Below are positions 3,386-20,153 of a stretch of 29,642 nucleotides of DNA, piece by piece. Both the position numbers and the translations under genes were made by a program. The DNA is taken from positions 1 to 29,642 of IMG/VR virus record IMGVR_UViG_3300046011_001037; one strand, given 5' to 3'. Under the pieces are notes generated by a model, which saw only the letters and a list, made by a program, of their open reading frames with translations, searched no databases and was not told the DNA's origin. Source of the stretch: a virus. The stretch's first letter is position 1. Each line of letters begins with the position of its first letter.

Positions 3386-4078
3386 GTGGACCCGCTAACC
3401 CTACTTGCTGCTGCTAACGCTGCTGTCGCTGCCGTCAAGAAAGGCTGCCAGCTTTACAAGGACATCAAAGGCGCAGCGGGTGAGGTTAAGGATGTACTGG
3501 ATGATCTGAAAAAGCAGTTTGGGAAGATCAAGGACCCGACTCCGGCACAGAAGATTCAGTACAACGAGGAGGTGCAGCGGGTGCAGGCGATCGGCAAGGC
3601 CGATCCAAATGATGTCTTCATCCAGATTGGTAACGATCTGGGTGCGCTGATGGACGAGTACGACAAGATCGGCAAGGTGTTTATTCAGCAGGAGGCCGAG
3701 GCGAAGACGGTGTACACAGGCGATCAGTCTATTGGAAAGCGGGCGCTGGCGAGGGTCATCATCAAGTCACGGCTGGATGCCATGCTGGCAGAGCTGCGGG
3801 AAACGATGGTCTACAAAGCGCCGCCAGAACTTGGCGCACTGTGGACAAAGTACGAGGCAATGTGGAAACAGATTGTCATTGAGCAGGACGAGGCGCACAA
3901 GCGAGAGACAGCACGGTTACAGACTGAGGCGCTAAGAAGGCAGCGGGCTTTGAGGATTAGGAAGGAATACGCATCATGGTTTGGCGCAATCCTTTTCGTC
4001 GTGGCGTGGCTCCTCGCCGTGCTGCTTCTAATTCGGGACAGTCAGACGTATCGTTCGCTATCGTATTATGTGTTTTAG
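3386..4078 (+). CDS. Hypothetical helical protein with C-terminal TM segment (230 aa)
   Basis: The start is GTG at 3386 (MDPLTLLAAANAAVAAVKKG); the nearby ATG at 3384 is in another frame and stops after four codons. The N-terminus is an Ala-rich amphipathic stretch (residues 5-20). Residues 30-190 are highly charged and helical, with a Lys/Arg-rich end. One membrane segment spans ~198-216 (WFGAILFVVAWLLAVLLL), followed by a short polar tail. I do not recognise a named family. Proteins beginning MDP(L/A)TL with an internal hydrophobic patch recur beside phage lysis genes. The last ~100 bases overlap the next gene in another frame. A role in lysis timing or in the envelope is inference from position only. 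Confidence 0.7.
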   Translation: MDPLTLLAAANAAVAAVKKGCQLYKDIKGAAGEVKDVLDDLKKQFGKIKDPTPAQKIQYNEEVQRVQAIGKADPNDVFIQIGNDLGALMDEYDKIGKVFIQQEAEAKTVYTGDQSIGKRALARVIIKSRLDAMLAELRETMVYKAPPELGALWTKYEAMWKQIVIEQDEAHKRETARLQTEALRRQRALRIRKEYASWFGAILFVVAWLLAVLLLIRDSQTYRSLSYYVF

Positions 4079-8725: not shown

Positions 8726-8802
8726 ATGACACCCCCGGCAAAGAGGATGATAACCATGATGATCATGGCGGTGATCGCGCCCAGGAAAAAATCGTCGCTC
8801 AT
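8722..8802 (-). CDS. 26-residue single-TM miniprotein
   Basis: A 26-codon frame linked by ATGA overlaps on both sides: its ATG overlaps the recombinase stop and its TGA overlaps the ATG of the 100-residue gene. GAGGTG lies 5-6 bases before the start. The product, MSDDFFLGAITAMIIMVIIL then FAGGVI, is an acidic N-terminus followed by one full hydrophobic helix. This is the pattern of a functional small membrane protein rather than a random frame. Its function is unknown. Confidence 0.65.
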   Translation of the reverse strand: MSDDFFLGAITAMIIMVIILFAGGVI

Positions 8803-9446
8803 GCTGCACCTCGCTGCATCAGGTTGGCGACCTGGCTGGCGCCCCACTTCTGGCCGCCGCGGGCAGTCTGAATGCCGCGGGCGGTCAAAGCGGCTGCAAT
8901 GGCACGCAGGCTAGTGCAACCGCTGCGCTCGATGTCGGCGATGATGGGCAGGATGCGCTGGGCAAACTGATCTGCGCTGGCCTGGATGCTGGCGATGCCG
9001 GCAGCGGAGCCTGCTGCTGGGTTTGGGCTGCCGAGCTTGACGCCGCGTGCCTTGGCTGCCTGCAGCGCTGCCTTGGTACGGCGGCTGATCTCTTCACGCT
9101 CATGCTGGGCAACCACTGCGCGGATGCCAAACTCGAGGGTGCCGGCATGCGGCATGTCTGCGGCCACGATTTGCACGCCGGAGTCACGCAGGGTCAGCAG
9201 GAAGGCAGCCTGGCGGGATAGGCGGTCGATCTTGGCGATCAGGAGAGCTGCGCCGGTGGCTTTGCACATAGCGATGGCGGCCTGCAGCTGCGGGCGGTCA
9301 TCATTCTTGCCTGATTCGATCTCGGTGAAACTGTGGATGATGCCGTCGGCGTACTGTTTGACGGCTGTTTGCTGAGCTTCGAGGCCAAGACCTGATTGAC
9401 CCTGGCGCTCGGTGGAAACGCGGTAGTAGGCTACATACTTGCTCAT
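8799..9446 (-). CDS. Serine site-specific recombinase (resolvase/invertase type)
   Basis: 215 residues from the ATG at 9446, which has AGGAG seven bases upstream; the frame extends to 9515 without a better start. The catalytic domain spans ~1-135: YYRVSTERQ with nucleophile Ser11 and Arg9, SGKNDDRPQLQAAI (45-58), IDRLSR (73-78, Arg75 and Arg78), and EREEISRRTKAALQAAKARG (116-135), the E-helix. A C-terminal helix-turn-helix of about 60 residues ends the protein. Length matches small resolvases and invertases, not the large phage serine integrases. It could act in multimer resolution, DNA inversion or integration. It is first gene of the leftward operon. Confidence 0.88.
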   Translation of the reverse strand: MSKYVAYYRVSTERQGQSGLGLEAQQTAVKQYADGIIHSFTEIESGKNDDRPQLQAAIAMCKATGAALLIAKIDRLSRQAAFLLTLRDSGVQIVAADMPHAGTLEFGIRAVVAQHEREEISRRTKAALQAAKARGVKLGSPNPAAGSAAGIASIQASADQFAQRILPIIADIERSGCTSLRAIAAALTARGIQTARGGQKWGASQVANLMQRGAA

Positions 9447-9475
9447 GTTTACGCTCCTGTATCTCGGTGGCGATG

Positions 9476-9491
9476 CGGTCGGAAGTGACCG
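9476..9491. promoter_or_regulatory. Operator or leader hairpin candidate: CGGTC-6-GACCG
   Basis: Arms CGGTC (9476-9480) and GACCG (9487-9491) with a 6-base spacer lie in the expected 5' leader of the leftward transcript, 30 bases before the recombinase ATG. It could be a second operator or an RNA hairpin near the ribosome binding site. Confidence 0.3.
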
Positions 9492-9508
9492 TAAACAGAT
9501 CCTCGCAT

Positions 9509-9523
9509 ATATCACCGCGATAT
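9509..9523. promoter_or_regulatory. Operator candidate: ATATC-5-GATAT palindrome
   Basis: Arms ATATC (9509-9513) and GATAT (9519-9523) flank ACCGC. It abuts the TTGACA of the leftward promoter and lies in its spacer, so a protein bound here would block transcription of the recombination operon. The ligand is unknown; the RHH protein encoded next door is the first candidate. Confidence 0.4.
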
Positions 9524-9528
9524 GTCAA
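9523..9528 (-). promoter_or_regulatory. -35 element (TTGACA) of the leftward promoter
   Basis: On the minus strand a perfect TTGACA lies about 80 bases before the recombinase ATG. The matching -10 is weak: GAGGAT at an 18-base spacing is the best candidate. The spacer contains the palindrome at 9509-9523. A perfect -35 with a poor -10 often means an activator or tight control. Confidence 0.4.
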
Positions 9529-9550
9529 CAACCCAAACCAATAATTCTGT

Positions 9551-9566
9551 GTGGTATTTTTACCAC
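9551..9566. promoter_or_regulatory. Operator candidate: GTGGTA-4-TACCAC palindrome
   Basis: A perfect 6-bp inverted repeat around TTTT, 58 bases before the RHH gene start. Its 16-base size fits two adjacent RHH dimers or one helix-turn-helix dimer. Autoregulation of the RHH/Mom operon is a reasonable inference. I could not identify a convincing rightward -10/-35 pair around it. Confidence 0.4.
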
Positions 9567-9623
9567 TACCGGCGCAGGGAAATTGCGTGCTATCTTCTGG
9601 ATATATTCACAAGGAGGTGTCTG

Positions 9624-9809
9624 ATGGAGCAGGAATACAAGCAAATGCTTGTGCGCTTTCGCGCTGAAACCAAGGATCTGCTGGATGCTGCGGCTAGGGA
9701 TCAGCGCAGATCACGCACCAGCATCATTGAGGAGCTGGTCATTGAGTCACTGAGGTCGAAGTACAGCTCGACAGAGAACAGGCTCAACAAACTCTTGGGT
9801 GCTGGATGA
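9624..9809 (+). CDS. Ribbon-helix-helix (Arc/MetJ-type) DNA-binding regulator
   Basis: 61 residues, ATG at 9624 preceded by a near-perfect AAGGAGGTG. Residues ~7-13 (QMLVRFR) form the DNA-contacting beta strand, ~15-27 the first helix (AETKDLLDAAARD) and ~31-45 the second helix (RTSIIEELVIESLRS). A short helical tail follows. This matches the Arc-like RHH fold, which binds operators as paired dimers. Its stop overlaps the ATG of the Mom-like gene (ATGA), so the two are co-translated and it most likely regulates that operon and perhaps the divergent recombination operon. Confidence 0.8.
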   Translation: MEQEYKQMLVRFRAETKDLLDAAARDQRRSRTSIIEELVIESLRSKYSSTENRLNKLLGAG

Positions 9810-10501
9810 GTTGGCTTGTTTTAAGAATAGATCCAGCCATGACTTATGAGTGGCTCAAGCGGCTGCACTATGCGCGTCGAGTGCCACAAATCAATTATGC
9901 CTTTGGGCTTTACATCGACGGTGACCTTAAAGGGGTCGTGACGTATGGCACGCCATCCTCGTCTCCTCTGAGAACGGGGGTTGCTGGTGTTACAAATTCC
10001 CATTTGGTAATTGAATTAAATCGACTTTGTTTTGATGAGCCCGTTAAAAATGGCGGGAGTTATTTGGTATCCAATAGTTTGCGGTTGCTACCAAGCCCCG
10101 CAATTGTCGTTAGTTATGCCGACACCTCGCAAGGGCATGTCGGCTATGTTTATCAGGCTTGCAATTTTCTTTATACCGGCCTGTCAGCAAAACGCACTGA
10201 TTGGAAGGTGCGAGGCATGGAGCATTTGCACGGTCAGACTGTTGCCGACATCAGTAAGTCTGCAGCTGGGCAGAGTCGAGGCAGTCGGGCTCAGTTTATG
10301 CGCGAGAAGTTTGGCGACGATTTTTATCTTGAGGATCGCCCTAGAAAACATCGTTACATTTACATCGTTGGCAACAAGCACCAACGCAAGCAATTGCATG
10401 GCAGCTTGCGTTACGAAGTTGTGCCTTATCCAAAAGGCGATTCGCAGCGCTACAGCATTTTGCATAAACCAGCCAAGCAGGCACTTTTGGAGTTGACATG
10501 A
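9806..10501 (+). CDS. mom: Mom-like DNA adenine modification enzyme (GNAT-type)
   Basis: 231 residues. The pattern matches the Mu Mom family: WLKRLHYARRVP (17-27), FGLYIDGDLKGVVTYG (33-48), LVIELNRLC (67-75), a Ser/Leu helix (SYLVSNSLRLL), VVSYADTSQGHVGYVYQACN (101-120), and near the end KHRYIYIVGNKHQRKQL (181-197) then PYPKGD. Mu Mom is an acetyltransferase-superfamily enzyme that converts adenine in DNA to a methylcarbamoyl (acetamido) form, shielding phage DNA from many restriction enzymes. Family assignment is by recognition of these motifs, not by search. Base composition is somewhat AT-richer than neighbours. It is translationally coupled to the RHH gene and overlaps the nuclease ATG. 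Confidence 0.8.
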   Translation: MSWLVLRIDPAMTYEWLKRLHYARRVPQINYAFGLYIDGDLKGVVTYGTPSSSPLRTGVAGVTNSHLVIELNRLCFDEPVKNGGSYLVSNSLRLLPSPAIVVSYADTSQGHVGYVYQACNFLYTGLSAKRTDWKVRGMEHLHGQTVADISKSAAGQSRGSRAQFMREKFGDDFYLEDRPRKHRYIYIVGNKHQRKQLHGSLRYEVVPYPKGDSQRYSILHKPAKQALLELT

Positions 10502-10920
10502 ACGGTCGAGGTAAGCGGGACAAGGGCTCTGCGGGTGAGCGGGAGGTGGCCAAGATCCTGACCGACAACTTGGGTTTTGTGGTCAAGCGCAACCTGGGAC
10601 AGGCCAGGGATGGCGCTGACGACATCACGATTGAGAAGTTTAGGATCGAGGTTAAGCGCAAGGAAGCTCTGGCCATCGACAAGTGGAGCGCCCAGGTGGA
10701 AGCCTGCGCCAAGGCCGGCGAGGTGCCGGTGGTAGTCTACAGACGCAGCGGCCAGCCCTGGCGGGTTTGCCTGCTGCTAGATGATTTTATTCCGATGATG
10801 CGTGATCAACTGGGAGGTGTTAGCAATGCAGAAACTGAAACTAGCGCTGCCGCAACAGCAGGCGAGCAAGACAAAAGACCGCAAGCAGAAGGACCCAACA
10901 GCCAGTGTCTGGAACAATGA
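10498..10920 (+). CDS. PD-(D/E)XK nuclease, probable Holliday-junction-resolvase type
   Basis: 140 residues. The fold is indicated by KGSAGEREVAKIL with Glu14, GADDI with Asp41/Asp42, and IEVKRKE with Glu51 and Lys53, followed by VPVVVYRRSGQPWRV. These are the ordered catalytic elements of Hjc-like or restriction-endonuclease-fold enzymes. Phages of this type often carry such a gene where others have RusA. The C-terminal ~35 residues are low complexity and overlap the next gene by 95 bases. It may resolve replication/recombination branches before packaging. Coupling to the Mom-like gene by ATGA also allows a role in attacking unmodified DNA (speculative). Confidence 0.75.
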   Translation: MNGRGKRDKGSAGEREVAKILTDNLGFVVKRNLGQARDGADDITIEKFRIEVKRKEALAIDKWSAQVEACAKAGEVPVVVYRRSGQPWRVCLLLDDFIPMMRDQLGGVSNAETETSAAATAGEQDKRPQAEGPNSQCLEQ

Positions 10921-11023
10921 CTGGAAGTACATTCCGGCCAGCGACACGGATCTAGCCAAGCGCTTTCGCCGGGTGCGGCGCGAGCAGCAGCTCGAGCAGG
11001 CGAAGATGCGGCGGGTGAAATGA
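10826..11023 (+). CDS. Small basic protein (65 aa)
   Basis: The ATG at 10826 is chosen for its strong GGGAGGTG seven bases upstream; the frame opens at 10802 but that start has no good site. The product is rich in Lys, Gln and Arg (MQKLKLALPQQQASKTKDRK), has a WNNDWKYIPA core and ends in an Arg-rich helix. It overlaps the nuclease gene by 95 bases in another frame. Function unknown; the charge suggests nucleic-acid contact. Confidence 0.65.
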   Translation: MQKLKLALPQQQASKTKDRKQKDPTASVWNNDWKYIPASDTDLAKRFRRVRREQQLEQAKMRRVK

Positions 11024-11139
11024 TTCGGCGTATCCGCAGGTTTGCACTTTGCTACCGGCTCTGGCGCAGCTCTGGTCTGACCATCATGGCGGCCATCAGA
11101 GCAACCAGGCGATACCACAGGCGATTCCTTGGCCTGTGA
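11020..11139 (+). CDS. Arg-rich miniprotein (39 aa)
   Basis: The ATG overlaps the preceding stop (ATGA). The 39-residue product is strongly basic (12 Arg by count) with a hydrophobic centre (SSGLTIMAAI), giving an amphipathic or membrane-associated helix flanked by Arg clusters. The following zinc-binding protein starts inside it. Small size lowers certainty, but coupling on both sides supports translation. Confidence 0.5.
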   Translation: MIRRIRRFALCYRLWRSSGLTIMAAIRATRRYHRRFLGL

Positions 11140-11398
11140 GCACTGCCCTATCTGTGACCGAGAGCACTGGAAGCCGCGCACGGTGGAGCTCAACGGCCAG
11201 CTGGTTTGTACCCACGGCGAGGCATGGCGGCATGAGTGCGAGGTTAGATGGGCTCTGAAGCTGCCAGACAAGGCCAGGAAGCCCCGTATCAGCAAGCTGG
11301 ACTACCTGAACGGGATTGAGAAAGAGCGCGGCTCAGAGGCCCGTTTCAAGCTGCGTCAAGACATGTTGAGGAGATACAAAAATGGAAAAGATAGGTGA
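11129..11398 (+). CDS. Small zinc-finger-like phage protein (89 aa)
   Basis: The start is uncertain: TTG at 11129 is the first usable codon and has only a weak site. The N-terminus holds C-x2-C-x2-C (CEHCPIC), DREHWKPRTV, and then CTHGEAWRHEC, so two Cys/His clusters about 25 residues apart could bind one zinc. The C-terminal half is basic and helical (LNGIEKERGSEARFKLR). Proteins with a CPICDR...CTH...W..EC pattern recur in phage early regions; role unknown. It overlaps the upstream 39-residue gene and the downstream TM gene. Confidence 0.65.
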   Translation: MACEHCPICDREHWKPRTVELNGQLVCTHGEAWRHECEVRWALKLPDKARKPRISKLDYLNGIEKERGSEARFKLRQDMLRRYKNGKDR

Positions 11399-11582
11399 AT
11401 GGTTCGCGGTGGCTTTCTATGTCGTGGTCGGCCTGATTGGCATCTTCATGATGTACCAGGTTATGCGGATGCCGATGCCGCATCCCAGGGACAACAGGCT
11501 GTGCGCGGTGGCCGAGATCAGCCCTGACATTACGCCAGCAGAGCGCGAGCGCTGCCGGCAAGCACGCGGTCACAAACTATAA
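11382..11582 (+). CDS. Small single-TM protein (66 aa)
   Basis: ATG at 11382 with GAGGAGA eight bases upstream. Residues ~7-27 form one membrane segment (WFAVAFYVVVGLIGIFMMYQ), followed by a polar region with MPMPHPRDNRLC and a final TPAERERCRQARG helix with a second Cys. It may be periplasmic or cytoplasmic beyond the TM. It overlaps the zinc-finger-like gene by 17 bases. Family unknown. Confidence 0.7.
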   Translation: MEKIGEWFAVAFYVVVGLIGIFMMYQVMRMPMPHPRDNRLCAVAEISPDITPAERERCRQARGHKL

Positions 11583-11599
11583 CTACAAGGAGAAAACAA

Positions 11600-11815
11600 A
11601 TGGAAGTTCCAAATAAGAAACACTTGTTGCTGGATACGATCATCAAGCAATACAAGTTAAAGACCGACGCGGAGCTCGCTCGGTTCCTGGAGTTGAAGGC
11701 CAGCCAGATCTCAAAGATCCGGCACGGGCATCTGGCCTGTGGCGCCGAGACAATCCTGCGGGTGCATGACATTACCGGCTGGGAGATCAAGGCTATCAAG
11801 GGGTTGTTGCCATGA
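11600..11815 (+). CDS. Cro/CI-like helix-turn-helix regulator
   Basis: 71 residues, ATG with AAGGAGAAAACAA immediately upstream. Residues ~20-45 (KTDAELARFLELKASQISKI) form a helix-turn-helix of the XRE/Cro type, with RHGHL following the recognition helix. The rest is a short helical dimerisation region ending EIKAIKGLLP. It lies inside the early rightward operon rather than at its head, so it may repress early transcription later in infection. Its stop overlaps the next start (ATGA). Confidence 0.8.
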   Translation: MEVPNKKHLLLDTIIKQYKLKTDAELARFLELKASQISKIRHGHLACGAETILRVHDITGWEIKAIKGLLP

Positions 11816-12168
11816 CCATCACACTAACCCGCGAGGAAGCGCAGCAGGTGCTTGATGTTATTGAAAGAAACATTGTCGGTGTGCCTCGTTATAGAGCAAC
11901 CGAACTGCTCCGCGCCCGACTCGCGCAGCCTGAACCGGAGCCGGTGGCTGACAAGTACCTGATGGAAGTTGAATGCACAAAGTGCGGTGCAAAGCAGGAT
12001 GGCGTTTTAACCGTCACCGCGCCACAACAACGCAACTGGCAGGGGCTGACGGATGAGGAAATGTTTAACTGTTTAGCACAAACTGACGGCGAAGCAAAAC
12101 GATTGCCGTTAGGTTTTAAATGGTTTGCTGAAGCCATCGAAGCCAAGCTAAAGGAGAAGAATGCGTGA
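11812..12168 (+). CDS. Hypothetical early protein with Cys pair (118 aa)
   Basis: Starts MTITLTREEAQQVLDVIERN, a helical N-terminus, with a Pro/Glu linker and a single CTKCG motif (residues ~55-59), then GLTDEEMFNCLAQ and a terminal helix FKWFAEAIEAKLKEK. Similar TLTREEAQQVLDAL openings recur in small phage proteins of replication regions. The lone Cys pair could be half of a zinc site completed by dimerisation. Function unknown. Confidence 0.7.
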   Translation: MTITLTREEAQQVLDVIERNIVGVPRYRATELLRARLAQPEPEPVADKYLMEVECTKCGAKQDGVLTVTAPQQRNWQGLTDEEMFNCLAQTDGEAKRLPLGFKWFAEAIEAKLKEKNA

Positions 12169-12344
12169 GCGAGCCACAACTGAGCCCGAAGGCTAGAGCT
12201 GCGGTGCAGGAAGCCTACAACGCCCTGGTTAAGTGGCAGACCATCTGCTTACAGAAGAACCGGTCGGCCAAGGAGTTGACGATTCCGACCAATGCTATTT
12301 TCACGTTGATCAAGCTCATGGAAGTTGAGGGGCTCGAGCAGTGA
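12165..12344 (+). CDS. Small helical protein before the replication initiator (59 aa)
   Basis: GTG at 12165 with AAGGAG nine bases upstream; it overlaps the previous stop (GTGA). The product, MSEPQLSPKARAAVQEAYNA then LVKWQTICLQ, is almost wholly helical, with one Cys. The stop overlaps the GTG start of the initiator gene, so it is probably co-translated with it. No family recognised. Confidence 0.65.
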   Translation: MSEPQLSPKARAAVQEAYNALVKWQTICLQKNRSAKELTIPTNAIFTLIKLMEVEGLEQ

Positions 12345-13303
12345 TTCCACAGCCTGGCAATGTGATTGAGTTCAAGCTACCGAAGAAGCCTAGGGTCAAG
12401 GAGAAGGAGCCGCTGCCAGACCAGCGTAAGGTGGCTGTATTGCCCATCAGAGCGCTCACAGACCAGCGGGTATCGGACAAGATGTTCAGGGTTTTGGCAC
12501 TGGTCTGCAGCTATGCCAACAGAGCTGGGATCACTTGGGTTAGCCAGGCAAGGCTGGCCAAAGATGCTGGAGTTACCCGGCAAGCGGTTGGCCGCCAGCT
12601 GGTAAAGCTGAGAGCTCTAGGCTACATCGAGACAGTCAGCAAGGCATGGAAGGGCGTCAAGCCGGACACCGTGAGAGTTGTATTTGATCCCAACATTGAT
12701 GCTGAAACGGCAATAGCAGTGACCAGCAGAATCGAAGACACAAGGCCACCAGAGATGAAACAAAAGCAACAGGAGGAGATCGACAACACCATCGATCCAG
12801 AAGGACTAAGACGCATCCACGACATGATCAGAGGCGTCGTCAAACCGATGAATCAACCACCAAAGGAATACACCATGCCCAAGTCAGGAGACACCGTAAC
12901 TGTTGCCAAGATGAAAGCAGAACTAGCCGCACATAAGGCAAAGAAGGCTCGCACATATGCAACACAAGAGGTTGCCAATGAGAGCCCACAATCTGCTCAA
13001 AAAAGAGGCACTCATAGGCAACATGATAGGCAACACAATGAGGTTGCACTAAACACCGAAATAACACTAAGTAAGGAATATATAAAGGTTTTAGATAAAT
13101 ATAAGATTAAAGGTTTAAATAAAGAGGAAATACTTAGGTTAACTTCTGTGCAACACTTAACGCATGAACAACTAGATGCTGATATTGCAATGTTGTTGAA
13201 CTTGTATCACGCTGAAGGGTTGCCAATTCCACAACCTGGCATGCTGATTGACTCCATCATGCAGCTACACAAGGATGCTGGAGCAACAGGCGATGCCATT
13301 TAA
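12341..13303 (+). CDS. Replication initiator, winged-helix (O-like)
   Basis: 320 residues, GTG start overlapping the preceding stop. Residues ~33-105 form a winged helix-turn-helix: LTDQRVSDKMFRVLALVCSY, WVSQARLAKDAGVTRQAVGR (recognition helix ~79-93) and LVKLRALGYIETV. Residues ~125-235 are a long polar linker with RQHDRQHNE, encoded by iteron-like repeats. The C-terminal ~85 residues are AT-rich in code and helical, plausibly the contact for a helicase loader. This layout (DNA-binding head, origin within the gene, protein-contact tail) parallels lambda O. No phage DNA polymerase or helicase is in the window, so host enzymes are probably recruited. Confidence 0.75.
   Translation: MIPQPGNVIEFKLPKKPRVKEKEPLPDQRKVAVLPIRALTDQRVSDKMFRVLALVCSYANRAGITWVSQARLAKDAGVTRQAVGRQLVKLRALGYIETVSKAWKGVKPDTVRVVFDPNIDAETAIAVTSRIEDTRPPEMKQKQQEEIDNTIDPEGLRRIHDMIRGVVKPMNQPPKEYTMPKSGDTVTVAKMKAELAAHKAKKARTYATQEVANESPQSAQKRGTHRQHDRQHNEVALNTEITLSKEYIKVLDKYKIKGLNKEEILRLTSVQHLTHEQLDADIAMLLNLYHAEGLPIPQPGMLIDSIMQLHKDAGATGDAI
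12968..13227. other. Candidate replication origin: iteron-like repeats and AT-rich tract inside the initiator gene
   Basis: ATAGGCAACA occurs twice at a 12-base period (13014-13023, 13026-13035). GGTTGCCAAT occurs at 12970-12979 and again at 13218-13227, and GTTGC at 13043-13047 pairs with GCAAC at 13030-13034. All share the core GTTGCC/GGCAAC. Directly after the tandem pair, 13051-13140 is only about 23% GC by hand count, a natural unwinding element. Repeats next to an AT-rich tract inside an initiator gene is the lambda-type origin design. Confidence 0.6.
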
Positions 13304-13384
13304 ATGCGATTTAAGGTACCGCCAAGGCGTTATCGATGGCAGGGTAATAGGCAGACATGGGTCAAGGCAGATCGTGGCTTGTAG
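13304..13384 (+). CDS. Short basic frame after the initiator (26 aa), possibly a broken N-terminus
   Basis: ATG at 13304 directly follows the initiator TAA. The product starts MRFKVPPRRYRWQGNRQTW, a plausible protein-like basic segment, and then meets TAG at 13382. The overlapping frame at 13357 continues with a convincing helix, so this may be the N-terminal part of a gene now split by a frame change, or just a tiny gene. Confidence 0.35.
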   Translation: MRFKVPPRRYRWQGNRQTWVKADRGL

Positions 13385-13683
13385 CGCCTCTATTCGCATC
13401 TGTCCAAATCGCAATCGAACGTATGGGTTTTGGACACCGGGGTCGCTGGAGGTGTCCGCAAAAGGCAGGGGGGGTTATCGACGTGTCCACATTTGATCGC
13501 AAGCTGGCGCAACTGCCCAGGGAAACGATTGCGTTGTCACTATGGCATGTATGTTGTCAGAAAGGCACCCCTTTCCCCCCGCCCCCAGCCGTAGCGTGGC
13601 GGGCACTCCCCACAATTTTTCCCCCCTATTTTGTCTCAGGGGTTTTTGTTACTTTTTTACAAGGGGTATATGATGGCGTATGA
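13357..13683 (+). CDS. Uncertain hypothetical protein (108 aa)
   Basis: The first ATG is at 13357. Residues ~8-30 (LVAPLFASVQIAIERMGFG) and ~42-70 (VSTFDRKLAQLPRETIALSL then WHVCCQKG) look like real helical protein. The last ~35 residues are Pro- and Phe-rich, encoded by C-runs and T-runs that look non-coding and include a terminator-like hairpin. The gene may be genuine only in its first two thirds, or may be a remnant. No family recognised. It lies between the initiator and the gene with the SSB-like tail. Confidence 0.4.
   Translation: MGQGRSWLVAPLFASVQIAIERMGFGHRGRWRCPQKAGGVIDVSTFDRKLAQLPRETIALSLWHVCCQKGTPFPPPPAVAWRALPTIFPPYFVSGVFVTFLQGVYDGV
13623..13647 (+). terminator. Weak Rho-independent terminator candidate
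   Basis: CCCCT (13623-13627) pairs with AGGGG (13638-13642) across a 10-base loop, then five T follow. The stem is short, so partial termination at best. Position between early genes and the packaging block makes it a sensible attenuation point. Confidence 0.35.
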
Positions 13684-13945
13684 AATGAGGCCTGGTAGTG
13701 GATCGCTGTTCAAGAATGACAAGAAGACAACGGACAAGCATCCGAGCATGAAGGGTAAGGTAATGTTGCCTGATGGCACCACAAGGTGGATGAGTGCGTG
13801 GACCAAGAAGACTGTTGCGGGTGAGACTTGGATCTCATTGCAGATTGGTGACTTGGTGGATGGTGGCGCACACAGCCAGGCCAAGAGCAATGGCTACCAG
13901 CCCCAGCCGCAGCCTGCCAACCCTGACGACGATATTCCGTTCTGA
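13670..13945 (+). CDS. Small protein with SSB-like acidic tail (91 aa)
   Basis: ATG at 13670 (a second ATG follows at once) with AAGGGG five bases before. The body is a compact beta-rich unit (MKGKVMLPDGTTRWMSAWTK then ETWISLQIGDLV), followed by a Gln/Pro linker and the terminus NPDDDIPF. E. coli SSB also ends in DDDIPF, the tip that binds many repair and replication proteins. The full SSB fold signature is not evident and the protein is much shorter. It could be a minimal OB-fold single-strand binder or a decoy that engages SSB partners. Its stop overlaps terS by one base. Confidence 0.7.
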   Translation: MMAYEMRPGSGSLFKNDKKTTDKHPSMKGKVMLPDGTTRWMSAWTKKTVAGETWISLQIGDLVDGGAHSQAKSNGYQPQPQPANPDDDIPF

Positions 13946-14361
13946 TGGCCGGCCCTAAGCAATCGCGGGTGATCCCGCCGGTGACAAGCTGGGGTGGTAC
14001 TCGCTCGATTCAGCGCCGGCTGGAGCGCTCAAATACCTTGATCCAGAATCGGGAGGCGGTCAGCTATGCTTTGTTGTGCATGGCCAACACCAAGATTACG
14101 GACATCATGACCTGGGACGAGGATGGCCAGGTCAAGGTCAAGGCGGCCCATCAGATCCCTGAGCATGCTCTGCAATCGATTAAGAAGATCAGTGTCAGGA
14201 CTGACAAGGATGGCAACAGCTATCTTGATATTGAGCTCTATGACAAGGTTGGCGTGCTGCGGTTGCTGGCCAAGGCTTCCGGCCTGCTGGATAACCCTGA
14301 CGAGAACGACAAACCGTCTGTGATTGATGTCAACGTGGTAGCGCCATCAACGGGGGAGTAA
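13945..14361 (+). CDS. terS: Terminase small subunit
   Basis: 138 residues. The sequence has the pattern of small subunits in T7-type environmental phages: SIQRRLERSNTLIQNREAVS near the N-terminus, NTKITDIMTWDEDGQVKVK, then IPEHALQSIKKISVRTDKDG and LDIELYDKVGVLRLLAKASG. It recognises phage DNA and recruits the large subunit. One secreted-protein gene (14361-14696) separates it from the large subunit, which is unusual because the pair is normally adjacent. ATG overlaps the preceding stop by one base. Confidence 0.85.
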   Translation: MAGPKQSRVIPPVTSWGGTRSIQRRLERSNTLIQNREAVSYALLCMANTKITDIMTWDEDGQVKVKAAHQIPEHALQSIKKISVRTDKDGNSYLDIELYDKVGVLRLLAKASGLLDNPDENDKPSVIDVNVVAPSTGE

Positions 14362-14696
14362 TGAAAAGAATCTTTCTCCTGCTGTGTTTAGTCGCCGGGT
14401 TTGCCAATGCGTCTGAGCTGGTCTGGTCAGATGCGGCTGGTGTTGAGTATGTGCTAACCCAAAAAAGAAGCCCGTTTTATTGCATTGGTTCGCATGAGAT
14501 GTACACCATTGACCAGCATGGCAATAGTCGATCCGGCTGCTGGATAAGGCGACTTGACTTTGTATATGTATATTTTAACGACACCAAAGAGATTGAAGAT
14601 CCACTTGTGTTCAATTTAGATAAGTTTGAGCGCCGGGTCATCAGCGCAGGTCAGCCGCCACAATCGCCAAGCAAAACGATTAGTTTGCCAAAATGA
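14361..14696 (+). CDS. Secreted protein inserted between terminase genes (111 aa)
   Basis: ATG overlaps the terS stop (TAATG). Residues 1-18 are a Sec signal peptide (MKRIFLLLCLVAGFANASE, cleavage likely after NA-S). The mature part has Cys in FYCIGSHEM and SGCWIRRLD that could form a disulfide, a short aromatic beta stretch (FVYVYF) and a Pro/Ser-rich tail. The gene is AT-richer than its neighbours. A periplasmic product has no role in packaging, so this looks like an inserted accessory gene, perhaps for superinfection exclusion or envelope defence (inference). Confidence 0.7.
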   Translation: MKRIFLLLCLVAGFANASELVWSDAAGVEYVLTQKRSPFYCIGSHEMYTIDQHGNSRSGCWIRRLDFVYVYFNDTKEIEDPLVFNLDKFERRVISAGQPPQSPSKTISLPK

Positions 14697-14711
14697 CTTT
14701 ATGGAGGAAAC

Positions 14712-16265
14712 GTGTCAAAAACAAAAGAGCAGTCAAGCAAGACGGTATCGAGCGAGGGTCTGAGGTTCGACTTCTCGCAGAGCCCGGTGATTTACGATTT
14801 CTTCAAGAGCAACGCCTTTGTGCAGGGGATCATGGGGCCGGTGGGCTCGGGCAAGAGCTACGGTTGTGCGGCCAAGATCTTCACCAAGGCCATCCAGCAG
14901 AAGCCATCCCCCATCGACAACATCCGATACACCCGCTGGGCGGTGGTCAGAAACAGCTACCCAATGCTGAAGACGACGACGATTAAGACCTGGCTGGATC
15001 TCTTCCCTGAATCTACCTTCGGGCCGATGCTCTATACCCCGCCAATTACCCACCATATCCGACTGCCTGCCCGCGGTGAAGCCGCAGGCATCGACATGGA
15101 AGTTATCTTTCTGGCGCTGGATCAGCCCAAGGATGTGCGAAAGCTGCTCTCGCTGGAGTTAACAGGTGCCTGGGTCAATGAAGCCCGTGAGCTGCCCAAG
15201 GCGGTGATCGACGGCCTAACCCACCGGGTTGGCCGGTATCCCACCAAGCGCGACGGTGGCGCTACCTGGCACGGCATCTGGATGGATACCAACCCGATGG
15301 ACGACGATCACTGGTGGCACAAGATGGCCGAGAAGGAAAAGATGACCGGGCAGTACGCCTGGAAGTTTTGGAAGCAGCCAGGCGGTATCCTGGAGGTCGA
15401 TCCCGCTGATCTGCCGGACAACCCCGAGGCCAACGATCACATATTCTCTGCCGGTAAGTGGTGGTGCGTGAATCCTAAAGCTGAGAACGTCAACAACCTG
15501 CCGGGTGGCTACTACCAGCAGATGCTCTTGGGCAAGAACTTGGATTGGATCAAGTGCTATGCCGGCGGCCAATACACCTATGTTCAGGAAGGTAGACCCG
15601 TCTGGCCTGAGTACAACGATTCACTGATGTCGGGTGACACCGATGTATCGCCTGATGTCCCAATCCAGCTGGGGCTGGACTTCGGATTGACGCCGGCGGC
15701 CACTATCGGCCAGCGCCTGCCCAACGGTCGCTGGGTCATTCATCATGAGATCGTCACCTTCGACATGGGCCTCGAGCGCTTTGGCATGCAGCTGCTGGCT
15801 GAACTCAACGCCAGGTTCCCCAACCATCAGGTCATGATTTGGGGTGACCCTGCCGGCATGCAGCGCGATGGCATCTACGAGGTCACCGCATTTGACTATC
15901 TGAGAACGCTCGGCCTGCGAGCACAGCCAACCGCCAGCAATGATTTCAAGGTACGCCGGGAAGCGGCCGCAGCGCCCATGCAGAGGCTGATCGACGGCAA
16001 GCCTGGGTTGATCATCAACCGCAACTGCAAGCTGCTCAGAAAAGCTCTAGCAGGCGGCTATCACTTCAAGCGCGTGGCAGTCGGCGCAGGGCAGGAGCGG
16101 TTCAGAGATGCGCCTAATAAGAACGAGCACTCACACATTGGTGACTCATTCGGCTACCTAATGCTCGGTGGCGGCGAATATAACCGCATGACCAGAAGCC
16201 ACCAGCTCGGCGGCAGAGCGCCCGGCATGAGCCTGGCAAAGATGGACTTTGATATTTTTGCGTGA
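14712..16265 (+). CDS. terL: Terminase large subunit
   Basis: 517 residues, GTG start with GGAGG five bases upstream. Walker A is GPVGSGKS (42-49). The motor region continues with NEARELPKAVIDGL and WMDTNPMDDDHWWHK. The RNase H-like nuclease has LGLDFGLTPA with Asp near residue 323, WGDPAG with Asp near 379, and HSHIGDSFGYLM with Asp near 478, giving the three expected acids. It powers DNA packaging through the connector and cuts concatemers. Length is normal for podovirus large terminases. Confidence 0.95.
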   Translation: MSKTKEQSSKTVSSEGLRFDFSQSPVIYDFFKSNAFVQGIMGPVGSGKSYGCAAKIFTKAIQQKPSPIDNIRYTRWAVVRNSYPMLKTTTIKTWLDLFPESTFGPMLYTPPITHHIRLPARGEAAGIDMEVIFLALDQPKDVRKLLSLELTGAWVNEARELPKAVIDGLTHRVGRYPTKRDGGATWHGIWMDTNPMDDDHWWHKMAEKEKMTGQYAWKFWKQPGGILEVDPADLPDNPEANDHIFSAGKWWCVNPKAENVNNLPGGYYQQMLLGKNLDWIKCYAGGQYTYVQEGRPVWPEYNDSLMSGDTDVSPDVPIQLGLDFGLTPAATIGQRLPNGRWVIHHEIVTFDMGLERFGMQLLAELNARFPNHQVMIWGDPAGMQRDGIYEVTAFDYLRTLGLRAQPTASNDFKVRREAAAAPMQRLIDGKPGLIINRNCKLLRKALAGGYHFKRVAVGAGQERFRDAPNKNEHSHIGDSFGYLMLGGGEYNRMTRSHQLGGRAPGMSLAKMDFDIFA

Positions 16266-16291
16266 ATTATATCTGTGTTATATGTTTGCTA

Positions 16292-16319
16292 TTGCAGGCT
16301 GTTGGAAATCAAATAGAAT
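16292..16319 (+). promoter_or_regulatory. Promoter candidate upstream of the cupin gene
   Basis: TTGCAG (16292-16297) and TAGAAT (16314-16319) with a 16-base spacer lie in the only 60-base gap after terL, six bases before the cupin ATG. The spacing to the start is short, so transcription would begin within or just before the gene; support is modest. Confidence 0.25.
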
Positions 16320-16325
16320 TAAAGT

Positions 16326-16640
16326 ATGAGCGCTAATTTTGATTTTGGCATTGTTCACCACTTTTCTGATGGTGTATATGCTAGACAAATGGAATTGCTA
16401 AAAGATCAATTCGCGATAACGCACGCGCATGAATATGATCATTTGAGCATTCTTGCAAGCGGTCGTGTAACAGTAGAGATTGACGGAATCGACGAGGAGT
16501 TTATTGCTCCTGCCTGCATCAATATAGTTGCTGGCAAACATCACAAAATTATTGCACTTGAAGATTCAGTTTGGTTTTGTGTCCATGCAACAGATGAGAC
16601 AGATCCAAACAAATTGGATCAAGTTTTGATAGGGGGGTAG
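16326..16640 (+). CDS. Cupin-domain protein (104 aa)
   Basis: A single small beta-barrel cupin: HAHEYDHLSILASGRVTVEI (33-52) supplies metal-ligand-type His residues, followed by FIAPACINIVAGKHHKIIAL and WFCVHATDET. Such small cupins occur after terL in many environmental podophages. The enzymatic substrate is unknown; a virion or sugar-related role is possible. The gene and its 60-base leader are AT-rich compared with terL, and the ribosome site is poor (AATTAAAGT), which suggests separate acquisition and its own control. Confidence 0.8.
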   Translation: MSANFDFGIVHHFSDGVYARQMELLKDQFAITHAHEYDHLSILASGRVTVEIDGIDEEFIAPACINIVAGKHHKIIALEDSVWFCVHATDETDPNKLDQVLIGG

Positions 16641-16641
16641 T

Positions 16642-17088
16642 ATGCCGTGGATTGCATTTGCTGTTTTGGCTGGCAGCGCTTATCAAGCCAACGAGGCAAG
16701 GCGAGCTCGAGAGAATGCTGAACGTCAGCAGGCGCAGGCTTTGCAACAGCAGGCGGCCGACGCTGCTGCAATGCGTAATGAGCTATCTCGGCAGACCGCT
16801 GAGTATGCCAAGCAAGGCGCATCACTCGAGCAGCAGGCGCAGACAGCGCGTCAGCAGTTTGAATCCCAGCGATTGCAATACCAAGAAAATCGCCTGGCGA
16901 TGGAGCAAAAGGCCAAGGAAGTGCAGGCAGCAGCCGACGAAGAGCGCCGCAAGGCCGCCGCATCTGAGGCATCTGCACTGCGGGCCAGAACCCGTGGCGG
17001 CCGCCGTGCGTTGCTGTCTCAAGAGCGTCTGACGCCTGAACTTGGTATCGCCGCAGCTGAACTCTCACCCGGCATGAGGATGCAATAA
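16642..17088 (+). CDS. Coiled-coil structural-type protein (148 aa)
   Basis: Starts with a short hydrophobic stretch (PWIAFAVLAGSAY, 2-14), then an almost continuous Gln/Ala/Glu/Arg coiled coil (15-118), and ends with a distinct tail: RTRGGRRALLSQERL and a glycine/methionine end. It lies in the virion block before the connector. The tail resembles short C-terminal motifs on small podovirus internal proteins. I take it as a probable virion-associated or assembly protein, with no named family. Its stop overlaps the next ATG by one base. Confidence 0.65.
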   Translation: MPWIAFAVLAGSAYQANEARRARENAERQQAQALQQQAADAAAMRNELSRQTAEYAKQGASLEQQAQTARQQFESQRLQYQENRLAMEQKAKEVQAAADEERRKAAASEASALRARTRGGRRALLSQERLTPELGIAAAELSPGMRMQ

Positions 17089-17711
17089 TGGCCAAGGCAC
17101 CGCGCTTTCGCAGAATGACGGACATCGACCGTCTGGCGCAACAATATAGCCGCAGCATCAATGAGCTGACCGGCCAATACGAGACATCATTTAGCGAATA
17201 TCAAAAGCAAGTTGCCCAGCAGCTGGCGCCGTTTGAGGAGGCATCGACCAGATATAAAACGGAAATTCTTCCGGCCTATGAGCAACAAGCACAAAATTAT
17301 AGAAAAAGATTAGCAGATTATCAAAAGTCACTTGGGGAAATTGGCAAAAATCCTTTTGAGGAACAAAAAATACTCGGCTCATTTAAACCTTATGGGAAAA
17401 CTTATGAGTGGGGCTATGTTATTAATAACCAATGGTATAGCGCAAAAAATCTTCCAGAGGGATATGTTGAAGAGAGCCCAACAGGAGATTTTGCTTTAAA
17501 AAAGAAAAGCATTCCAAAATTTACCGAAAAAGCCCCGGTTGCCCCAACCGCACCAACAGCGCCAGAGGTTGCCGCATTTGATGCGTCGCAATTTGAGCAG
17601 CGCCGTGGCCAGCTGCAGGAAGAGTATGGCCGCGAAGTCGGAGAGCGCCGCGCCGGTAGGCTGGCCGCTGTCTCTCGCCGCAGTCGCAGACCAATGCTAC
17701 AGGGAGCTTAA
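17088..17711 (+). CDS. Coiled-coil protein with an AT-rich central insertion (207 aa)
   Basis: The N-terminal ~85 residues are coiled coil (RLAQQYSRSINELTGQYETS and on). Residues ~85-145 form a distinct aromatic domain (FKPYGKTYEWGYVINNQWYS), followed by a Pro/Ala/Thr linker and an Arg-rich tail ending RRSRRPMLQGA. Bases 17281-17520 are about 34% GC by hand count, against about 62% in the next 60 coding bases, so the central domain looks inserted. The Arg-rich end recalls the upstream gene's tail. Role probably structural; family unknown. Confidence 0.65.
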   Translation: MAKAPRFRRMTDIDRLAQQYSRSINELTGQYETSFSEYQKQVAQQLAPFEEASTRYKTEILPAYEQQAQNYRKRLADYQKSLGEIGKNPFEEQKILGSFKPYGKTYEWGYVINNQWYSAKNLPEGYVEESPTGDFALKKKSIPKFTEKAPVAPTAPTAPEVAAFDASQFEQRRGQLQEEYGREVGERRAGRLAAVSRRSRRPMLQGA

Positions 17712-17713
17712 TC

Positions 17714-17887
17714 ATGCCAGGTCATTACGGAACAAAAGACAAGATGAAGGACAAGGTGTCCAAGGTTATGCGCGAGTACAAGGCCGGCAAGCTGAAGTCA
17801 TCTAGCGGCGACAAGGTCAAGTCACGCGACCAGGCGGTTGCCATTGCTTTATCTGAAGCCGGTATGAGCAAGGAAAAGAAAAAATGA
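17714..17887 (+). CDS. Small Lys-rich DUF6496-type protein (57 aa)
   Basis: ATG at 17714 with AGGGAG ten bases upstream. The product has the pattern KVMREYKAGKLKSSSGDKVK then SRDQAVAIALSEAG, typical of a widespread small family in phages and bacteria annotated DUF6496. It is very basic. The stop overlaps the next ATG (ATGA). Function is not known; histone-like DNA contact is a guess from charge. Confidence 0.75.
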   Translation: MPGHYGTKDKMKDKVSKVMREYKAGKLKSSSGDKVKSRDQAVAIALSEAGMSKEKKK

Positions 17888-18042
17888 AAGAGGTATGGGA
17901 TAAGCCGCGCCCCAAAGACCTGGGCAAGCCAAAGGAACTATCGTCAGCTGAGAAGCGCATGGCGATGCGTAGAGCCAAGGCCGCAGGCAGACCCTATCCT
18001 AATTTGATCGACAACATGGCAGCAGCACGGGGGAACAAATGA
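17884..18042 (+). CDS. Small basic conserved phage protein (52 aa)
   Basis: ATG overlaps the preceding stop and the stop overlaps the next ATG. The product begins MKEVWDKPRPKDLGKPKELS and ends with RAKAAGRPYPNLIDNMAAAR. From memory, proteins with this KPRPKxLGKPxxLS and GRPYPNLIDN pattern are frequent in tailed phages just before the portal. Function unknown. Confidence 0.75.
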   Translation: MKEVWDKPRPKDLGKPKELSSAEKRMAMRRAKAAGRPYPNLIDNMAAARGNK

Positions 18043-18224
18043 AAGTAGAAGTGTCCATCGAGAAAGAGTACGAAGAAGAGGGAGATACGGTTGAGCTGTC
18101 CAAGCTCCCGCCAGCACTTCGCAAGAAGATTGAAAAGTACATGGCAGCCAAAAAGCCAGGCAAGCCAATGCGCGGCCTGAAGGAAATGATGGACGAGGCC
18201 GAGCTTGAGGAAGAGGAAGACTAA
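18039..18224 (+). CDS. Small highly charged protein (61 aa)
   Basis: The product is MKVEVSIEKEYEEEGDTVEL with a Lys-rich middle (LRKKIEKYMAAKKPGKP) and a strongly acidic end (EAELEEEED). The alternation of acidic, basic and acidic blocks suggests a partly disordered adaptor. It is coupled on both sides by overlaps. No family recognised. Confidence 0.65.
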   Translation: MKVEVSIEKEYEEEGDTVELSKLPPALRKKIEKYMAAKKPGKPMRGLKEMMDEAELEEEED

Positions 18225-18544
18225 TGTTGCGCGACCCAGAGGGTGGGCTGACCGAGGCTGGCCGGCGCAAGTTTGAGCGGTCTGGCGAGAGCAAGAACCT
18301 CCAGCCTGGCGTCAAAGACAGCAACCCTGTGGGTGAGCGAGCGCGACGCAAGGGATCTTTCCTGACTCGGTTTTATACCAATCCGAGCGGCCCGCTGGTT
18401 GACGATGATGGCGATCCTACCCGGCTGGCCTTGGCCGCCAACGCATGGGGTGAGCCTGTGCCACGCACTGCGGGCGCCGCAGCCAGGTTGGCCGCCAAGG
18501 GTCGCAACCTGCTGGAAAAGTACAAGTTAAACAAGGACGACTGA
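18224..18544 (+). CDS. DUF6321-type phage protein (106 aa)
   Basis: The sequence GGLTEAGRRKFERSGESKNL then QPGVKD, RRKGSFLTRFY, PLVDDDGDPTRLALAANAWG and RLAAKGRNLLEKYK match the DUF6321 pattern seen in many phages upstream of the portal. It is basic and of normal length. Its biochemical role is unknown. It sits one base before the connector ATG region and is co-transcribed with it. Confidence 0.8.
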   Translation: MLRDPEGGLTEAGRRKFERSGESKNLQPGVKDSNPVGERARRKGSFLTRFYTNPSGPLVDDDGDPTRLALAANAWGEPVPRTAGAAARLAAKGRNLLEKYKLNKDD

Positions 18545-18545
18545 C

Positions 18546-20153
18546 ATGGAATACCAGAAACCCGTCGGAGGCATGAGGCTCAAGCCGGATGAGATCATGA
18601 AGCGGCAGGAACTCGCCCAGCGCAAGAAGGACGAATTTCAGCAGCTCTATCAAGATGCCTACGAGTTTGCCCTGCCACAGCGCCAGCTCTATGGCGTATG
18701 GGAGGGTTCGGCAACCGGCAGCAAAAAGATGCAGCGGGTTTTTGACTCTACCGCCATCAACTCCACTCAGCGGTTTGCCAACCGGCTGCAGTCTGTTGTT
18801 TTCCCACCACAGCGCAAATGGGCAAGGCTGGAACCTGGTCCGTCAATTCCGGCTGACCGCAAGCAGCAGCTGCAGGCAGTGCTGGATGTCTACGGCGAGC
18901 AGATGTTTGCTGTGCTCAAACAATCAAACTTTGACATTGCGATTGGTGAATTCCTGCTGGATCTGGCGGTCGGCACGGCCTGCATGATGGTGCAGCCGGG
19001 TGACGACGTATCGCCGATTAACTTTATCCCTGTGCCGATGTTCCTTGTTTCCTACGAGGAAGGCGCGAATGGTCAGGTCGATAATGTCTACCGTCGCATG
19101 CGAATGAAGGGCGAGAGCATTCAGCGCCAGTGGCCAGACGCCAAGATACCTGATCAGTTAAAGCGCCAGATTGAGCAGAAGCCCACAGACGACATTGAGC
19201 TGCTGGAAGCCACAATCTTTGACCAGAAGCGCGGCGATTATTGCTATCACGTTATCTGGAAGCAAGGCAAAGATGAGCTGGTCTATCGCCGTCGCAGCAC
19301 TTCGCCCTGGGTAATCTCACGTTACATGAAGGTTGCCGGCGAGATCTATGGTCGCGGCCCGCTGATGACTGCCTTGCCAGACATTAAGACGCTGAACAAG
19401 GTTAAGGAACTGCTGCTAAAGAATGCTAGCCTGGCTGTTGCCGGCGTCTATACGGCTGCAGACGATGGCGTTTTGAATCCCAACACCGTCAAGCTGGTGC
19501 CGGGTGCAATTATCCCTGTGGCTCGCAATGGCGGTCCACAAGGACCAGCCCTGCTGCCGCTGCCCCGCTCCGGTGACTTTAACGTCAGCCAGCTGGTGAT
19601 CAACGATCTGGCCGCCAACATCAAGCGCATTCTGCTGGACGAGTCGCTGCCGCCGGACAATATGTCTGCTCGTTCGGCCACCGAGATTGTTGAGCGCATG
19701 AAGGAACTTGCTCAAAATTTAGGCAGCGCCTTTGGCCGTCTGATCAACGAAACCATGATCCCGCTGGTGGCCAAGATCCTTGAGGTGATGGACGAGCGCG
19801 GGCTGATCGACATGCCGCTGCGGGTCAATGGGCTCGAGGCCAAAGTGGTTCCGGTGGCTCCGCTGGCGATGGCTCAGAATATGGAAGAGGTCAACGCAAT
19901 CATCCAGTACACCCAGCTAATGCAGGCATTTGGCACAGATGGGGCGCTGTCGATTAAAACGGATATGGTTGTCGATTACATTGGCGACAAGCTGGGCGTG
20001 CCTGCTGCGGTTCGCAATACGGCAGCCGAGCGTGCGGTGCTGATGGAGACAATGCAGCAGCAACAGCAAGAGGCGGCACTAGCGCAGGCTATGGCTATGC
20101 AAGCGCAGGCCGGCGGCCCGCCGGGATTGCCAGCACCTGAAGGGATGGTCTAA
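18546..20153 (+). CDS. Head-tail connector (portal) protein, T7 gp8-like
   Basis: 535 residues, essentially the length of T7 gp8. The N-terminal pattern KKDEFQQLYQDAYEFALPQR, the region STAINSTQRFANRLQSVVFP and PPQRKWARLEPG, and the later DNMSARSATEIVERMKELAQ are characteristic of the podovirus head-tail connector family. It forms the dodecameric ring at the capsid vertex through which DNA is packaged and to which tail tube A attaches. The C-terminus is Gln/Ala/Met-rich and likely faces the head interior. The stop overlaps the next ATG. Confidence 0.95.
   Translation: MEYQKPVGGMRLKPDEIMKRQELAQRKKDEFQQLYQDAYEFALPQRQLYGVWEGSATGSKKMQRVFDSTAINSTQRFANRLQSVVFPPQRKWARLEPGPSIPADRKQQLQAVLDVYGEQMFAVLKQSNFDIAIGEFLLDLAVGTACMMVQPGDDVSPINFIPVPMFLVSYEEGANGQVDNVYRRMRMKGESIQRQWPDAKIPDQLKRQIEQKPTDDIELLEATIFDQKRGDYCYHVIWKQGKDELVYRRRSTSPWVISRYMKVAGEIYGRGPLMTALPDIKTLNKVKELLLKNASLAVAGVYTAADDGVLNPNTVKLVPGAIIPVARNGGPQGPALLPLPRSGDFNVSQLVINDLAANIKRILLDESLPPDNMSARSATEIVERMKELAQNLGSAFGRLINETMIPLVAKILEVMDERGLIDMPLRVNGLEAKVVPVAPLAMAQNMEEVNAIIQYTQLMQAFGTDGALSIKTDMVVDYIGDKLGVPAAVRNTAAERAVLMETMQQQQQEAALAQAMAMQAQAGGPPGLPAPEGMV

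Follow-up and report, generated by a model that had tools for sequence, protein, structure and literature searches.

Phages escape restriction through chemical alteration of their own DNA. In phage Mu, translation of mom is activated by the zinc-finger protein Com (PMC6483171). The locus analyzed here lies in a stretch of 29,642 nucleotides of viral DNA (IMG/VR record IMGVR_UViG_3300046011_001037), referred to below as the window. It shares with Mu com-mom a Mom-family enzyme encoded behind a small regulatory gene, overlapping frames and an adjoining gene of the DNA-invertase type (Gin in Mu). However, an RHH gene, which also heads operons without mom, takes the place of com, the invertase gene is divergent, and a nuclease gene follows mom.

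Two further systems are close to this arrangement. In cryoconite phages (Bellas 2020, PMC7468147), methylases are the most frequent annotated genes of the variable islands, at 11% of all annotated genes there. As in these phages, near-identical cores are found with interchanging genes, methylases being the commonest; whereas the cryoconite phages carry many islands per genome, the viruses studied here have one fixed junction that favours DNA modification, with Mom among the swapped types. The antiviral hotspots of P2 and P4 (Rousset 2022, PMC9122126) are likewise small, high-turnover loci between two conserved phage genes, but they carry defence systems of 1-5 kb, while here single genes of the counter-restriction type sit inside an overlapping operon. 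Exchangeable methylase genes in the variable regions of phages (PMC7468147) and hotspots flanked by conserved phage genes (PMC9122126) are thus already known; in the literature searched, we found no description of a single operon junction used largely for DNA modification with Mom as an option.

We consider it likely that the operon goes back to an ancestral pair of an RHH autorepressor and an Hjc-like nuclease, whose 4-nt overlap serves as a slot for modification genes, in the window for mom. Relatives appear to swap DNA disguises at this one fixed spot.

The operon and its Mom-family protein

The features of the locus are listed in Table 1. As the initial annotation had described, three ORFs are coupled through ATGA, with 4-nt overlaps at 9806-9809 and 10498-10501. 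Since each of them has many conserved homologues, we regard them as real genes. A strong Shine-Dalgarno sequence (aaggaggt) precedes the RHH start codon at 9624; mom has no clear one of its own and is probably translated by coupling to the upstream gene.

Table 1. Positions of the operon, its slot and adjoining features in the window.
Feature	Position	Strand	Description
Serine recombinase, DNA-invertase type	8799..9446	-	divergent; phrog_125, E 1.5e-33; upstream anchor of the conserved block
Inverted repeat GTGGTATTTTTACCAC, candidate RHH operator	9551..9566	.	perfect; GTGGTA-TTTT-TACCAC; operon promoter region
RHH gene	9624..9809	+	61 aa; Arc/CopG-like; first gene of the operon
Mom-family gene (slot cargo)	9806..10501	+	231 aa
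Exchange slot (RHH/nuclease junction)	9806..10501	.	52 relative clusters: 29 empty, 23 filled
PD-(D/E)XK-type nuclease gene, Hjc-like	10498..10920	+	140 aa
Small conserved ORF	10826..11023	+	65 aa; homologues at the equivalent position in most relatives

The inverted repeat GTGGTATTTTTACCAC occurs once in the window, where shuffled sequences are expected to contain none. Among 311 loci it was found only upstream of the RHH clade of the window (33 locus entries), where it accompanies all the cargo types of that clade. This distribution fits a predicted operator at which the RHH protein would control the whole operon. A simple scan gave no sigma-70 promoter, and neither PADLOC nor a megablast search of window positions 9000-20000 against phage records yielded a match.

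The neighbourhood of the operon includes RecT, a RecE-like exonuclease and an O-like initiator. In its position beside the mom operon, the serine recombinase gene recalls the Gin-com-mom order of Mu, although it is oriented divergently and accompanies all states of the slot. Downstream, the conserved block runs on through the small ORF, which overlaps the C-terminal extension of the nuclease gene by 95 nt and has no family match among the Pfam and PHROG profiles. In the window's clade this extension is long; other clades have a shorter one or none.

The initial annotation had taken the second protein to be Mom-like, and a profile search placed it firmly in the Mom family (PF25680, E 1.3e-38; 133 bits against a cut-off of 27.1; profile positions 2-202 of 202). 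It also matches phrog_1384 (E 6.7e-48) and aligns to the solved methylcarbamoylase Mom (PDB 8bv8, E 4.6e-11), so that it is a clear member by sequence, although it is only ~28% identical to Mu-like Mom. Residues H21, Y22, R73, D106 and Y116 correspond to H48, Y49, R101, D139 and Y149 of Mu Mom, which we take to be residues of the active-site region. In a comparison of 25 Moms, the equivalents of Mu H48, Y49, R101, S114 and Y149 were invariant and that of D139 nearly so. Judged from its sequence, the protein is expected to modify adenines of the phage DNA and thereby to block host restriction.

Mom is not native to the RHH-nuclease operon. Its closest counterparts among the other Moms (54-64% identity) are encoded in operons that contain replication genes and nucleases of other kinds; the window-type nuclease is absent there, and no window-type RHH gene stands immediately upstream. 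The GC3 of mom is 0.48, compared to 0.64-0.73 for the RHH, nuclease, invertase and RecE genes; since the O-like gene of the window is also low (0.51), composition is weak evidence for a foreign origin. On unrelated backbones (L041, L311, L014, L019, L024 and L030), Moms are often found near nucleases of other families, namely annotated VRR-nuc and NinG/Rap proteins and, by eye, RusA-like and RuvC-like ones.

Contents of the slot and confinement of modifiers

Searches with the RHH protein and the nuclease as queries returned 148 loci containing both, corresponding to 93 distinct sequences, which form 52 clusters at 95%. Starting from either query, the two were nearly always found together, and the RHH gene adjoins the nuclease gene in the 148 loci. 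In the 29 clusters with an empty slot, they share the 4-nt overlap directly and no insert separates them, and the inserts of the 23 filled clusters mostly keep 4-nt overlaps. DNA-modification families account for 17 of these 23 and comprise six modifier kinds, including two distant Mom types: C5-cytosine methylases of two kinds (7 + 1 clusters), the phrog_757 methylase (2), an N4/N6 methylase (1), the window-type Mom (1) and a distant short Mom (5; PF25680, 1.2e-10), which is a Mom by profile comparison. The single cluster of the second C5 kind, L250, was counted as such because another frame encodes a C5-methylase, though its longest ORF matched phrog_1008. In more distant loci of the EBPR type, an N4/N6-type methylase gene directly precedes the nuclease gene.

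The remaining occupants are a GNAT acetyltransferase (4 clusters), an HNH gene, which thus uses the slot too (1), and a 130-aa protein with no PHROG match (1; L255:3646-4035). We consider the GNAT and L255 proteins putative DNA modifiers, the latter being a candidate new modifier or anti-restriction protein. Profile comparison gave no detectable Mom match for the GNAT occupant. A gene 60% identical to it (L014:3692-4225) lies near the Mom of another virus and possibly encodes a DNA-modifying or Mom-partner enzyme.

To what extent modifiers are confined to the junction is seen in 30 records of 16-45 kb, which may be incomplete and 19 of which have an empty slot. C5-methylase matches (PF00145) were obtained in five of the 30, always at the slot, Mom (PF25680) was found in the window alone, and methylases of the N4/N6 (PF01555) and D12 (PF02086) families in none; phrog_757 gave just cross-hits on C5 genes. 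As filled records had been chosen for being filled, the empty-slot records are the fair control, and in all 19 the searched modifier families were missing elsewhere as well, which falls short of proof for any one virus because the loci are metagenomic contigs, many of them short. In the relatives compared, the flanking genes (RecE-like, invertase, downstream ORFs) are syntenic regardless of slot content. At other variable junctions of these viruses, we found small ORFs of unknown function or an HNH-like gene, and no modifier of the tested families.

These observations bear on the view that the slot is a neutral, tolerated insertion site whose bias merely mirrors the abundance of methylases in the mobile gene pool of phages. 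Methylases do lead the annotated genes of cryoconite variable islands at 11% (PMC7468147), and an HNH gene and an unknown gene also enter the slot. Yet 17 of 23 filled clusters, with six modifier kinds including two Moms, are far above that figure, and the remaining variable junctions in these viruses lack modifiers of the tested families. We therefore regard a neutral site as unlikely. A single junction that holds Mom, C5, N4/N6 or other methylases, GNAT or nothing constitutes a natural series of similar viruses, in which one may ask which modification beats which host. It may also serve as bait for new DNA-modifying enzymes, for which the GNAT and L255 occupants are direct candidates.

The nuclease and the RHH protein

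The assignment of the third protein to the PD-(D/E)XK type was correct: it matches PF24608 (PDDEXK_15, E 2.7e-11) and phrog_244 (E 1.6e-21), and E14, D42, E51 and K53 are invariant across 17 divergent members. Phrog_244 is labelled RusA-like, yet these residues are of the PD-(D/E)XK type. The best PDB match of the family profile is the archaeal Holliday junction resolvase Hjc (1gef), at a marginal E of 0.005, and the record of the Siara homologue notes HHpred 1OB8. Fold prediction from a homogeneous alignment gave a model of low quality (pLDDT 51), for which Foldseek returned noise.

According to the initial annotation, the nuclease might attack unmodified host or rival DNA while Mom marks that of the phage. 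The RHH protein would then be the controller of a unit that resembles restriction-modification. The gene order is indeed that of controller, modifier and nuclease (C-M-R), several modifier kinds occupy the same place, and in EBPR podovirus 1 and L296, too, a methylase gene directly precedes the nuclease gene. In a Type II system, the nuclease would always accompany a cognate modifier; here, 29 of 52 clusters have the nuclease without any modifier in the slot, and the longer empty-slot records show none elsewhere. The homologues in JenP2, Siara and S0112 have no adjacent modifier, and PADLOC recognized no such system. Moreover, a 93% identical nuclease is encoded beside a C5-methylase (L044) and an 81% identical one beside an empty slot (L047), and the first 300 nt of the nuclease gene are identical between L104, which carries a short Mom with a shortened ORF, and L116, which is empty. 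As nearly the same nuclease pairs with a C5-methylase, Mom or nothing, it has no fixed tie to Mom and cannot rely on any single modification. This speaks against a restriction-like weapon whose partner is Mom, and a unit of this kind seems very unlikely to us.

The more cautious suggestion, a nuclease that does no more than resolve junctions, is the better reading. We favour a Holliday-junction-resolvase-like enzyme with a predicted role in junction resolution because of its presence in modifier-free loci, its indifference to the kind of modifier and its similarity to Hjc, and also because of its RecT/RecE-like/O-like neighbourhood, the position of the JenP2 copy beside replication genes, and RusA being absent from the 30 longer records.

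For the first protein, the evidence is weak but consistent with the RHH-like identity originally proposed. The RHH_1 match (E 0.0036) is below the cut-off, the model has two helices and nearly all its Foldseek matches are RHH proteins (Arc, MazE, TacA, AmrZ), each with E > 1, and the family profile leads to CopG and Arc (E 0.14-0.39). RHH proteins are common as antitoxins, and the weak matches include some, so that the RHH-nuclease pair with its 4-nt gene overlap could be read as a toxin-antitoxin pair whose slot collects unrelated passengers. This is highly improbable, as the nuclease matches no toxin or toxin-antitoxin family, its homologues in other phages occur without RHH, some of them behind HTH-like ORFs, and the cargo is strongly biased to DNA modification.

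Still less probable, in our view, is that the RHH protein replaces Com as a Mom-specific regulator that times modification late in infection. It directly precedes and overlaps mom, whose start lacks a clear Shine-Dalgarno sequence, and Com (PF10122) is absent from the window record, the RHH gene being there instead. However, this RHH protein also stands first in operons whose slot is empty or holds a C5-methylase or a phrog_757 methylase, the candidate operator is conserved regardless of cargo, and the nearest Moms have no window-type RHH upstream. Since the RHH-nuclease pair is constant while the slot contents vary, we do not regard the RHH protein as a Com substitute. Nor is non-Com control of a Mom unusual, as had been supposed: among 40 Mom-bearing records, Com was found in two, both Mu-like, so that the 38 without it represent the rule. 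The functional story of the initial annotation is therefore mostly wrong.

Turnover and a model of exchange

On the nuclease tree, the slot states require at least 24 changes compared to a minimum of nine, and their labels are no more clustered than shuffled ones; at least 11 changes between empty and filled are forced by strong branches. The tree, built from 300 nt of 91 sequences, has 37 weak branches; recombination within the nuclease gene could inflate the count of changes.

We propose that the RHH-nuclease pair belongs to the early replication and recombination region of a group of small tailed phages that have been seen mostly in metagenomes, with the RHH protein presumably autoregulating the whole operon at GTGGTATTTTTACCAC. 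DNA-modification genes come and go at the overlap of the two genes. As the cargo keeps or recreates the overlaps, it would use the RHH promoter and translational coupling, and the nuclease would still be expressed. The cargo would then modify the phage DNA and block host restriction, while the nuclease at the end of the operon may resolve junctions. Swaps might take place by homologous recombination in the flanking genes, for which one hint is an edge at position 10542 in the comparison with L003. That the pair itself is a cassette-exchange machinery for a homing-like spread of modification cassettes between phages, driven by the nuclease or by recombination that it promotes at the conserved 5' end of the nuclease gene, appears decidedly unlikely.

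Between positions 3806 and 10541, L003 and the window do not differ; from 10542 onward, a short way into the nuclease gene, identity drops to ~80%. This break lies near the contig end and could be a recombination edge, or else a strain switch at the contig end or an assembly artefact; the two nuclease alleles differ in 31 synonymous and 18 non-synonymous codons. In L104, the short Mom gene (2469-2986) is truncated, its slot being 35 nt shorter than those of its relatives, and may represent a cargo in the course of being lost.
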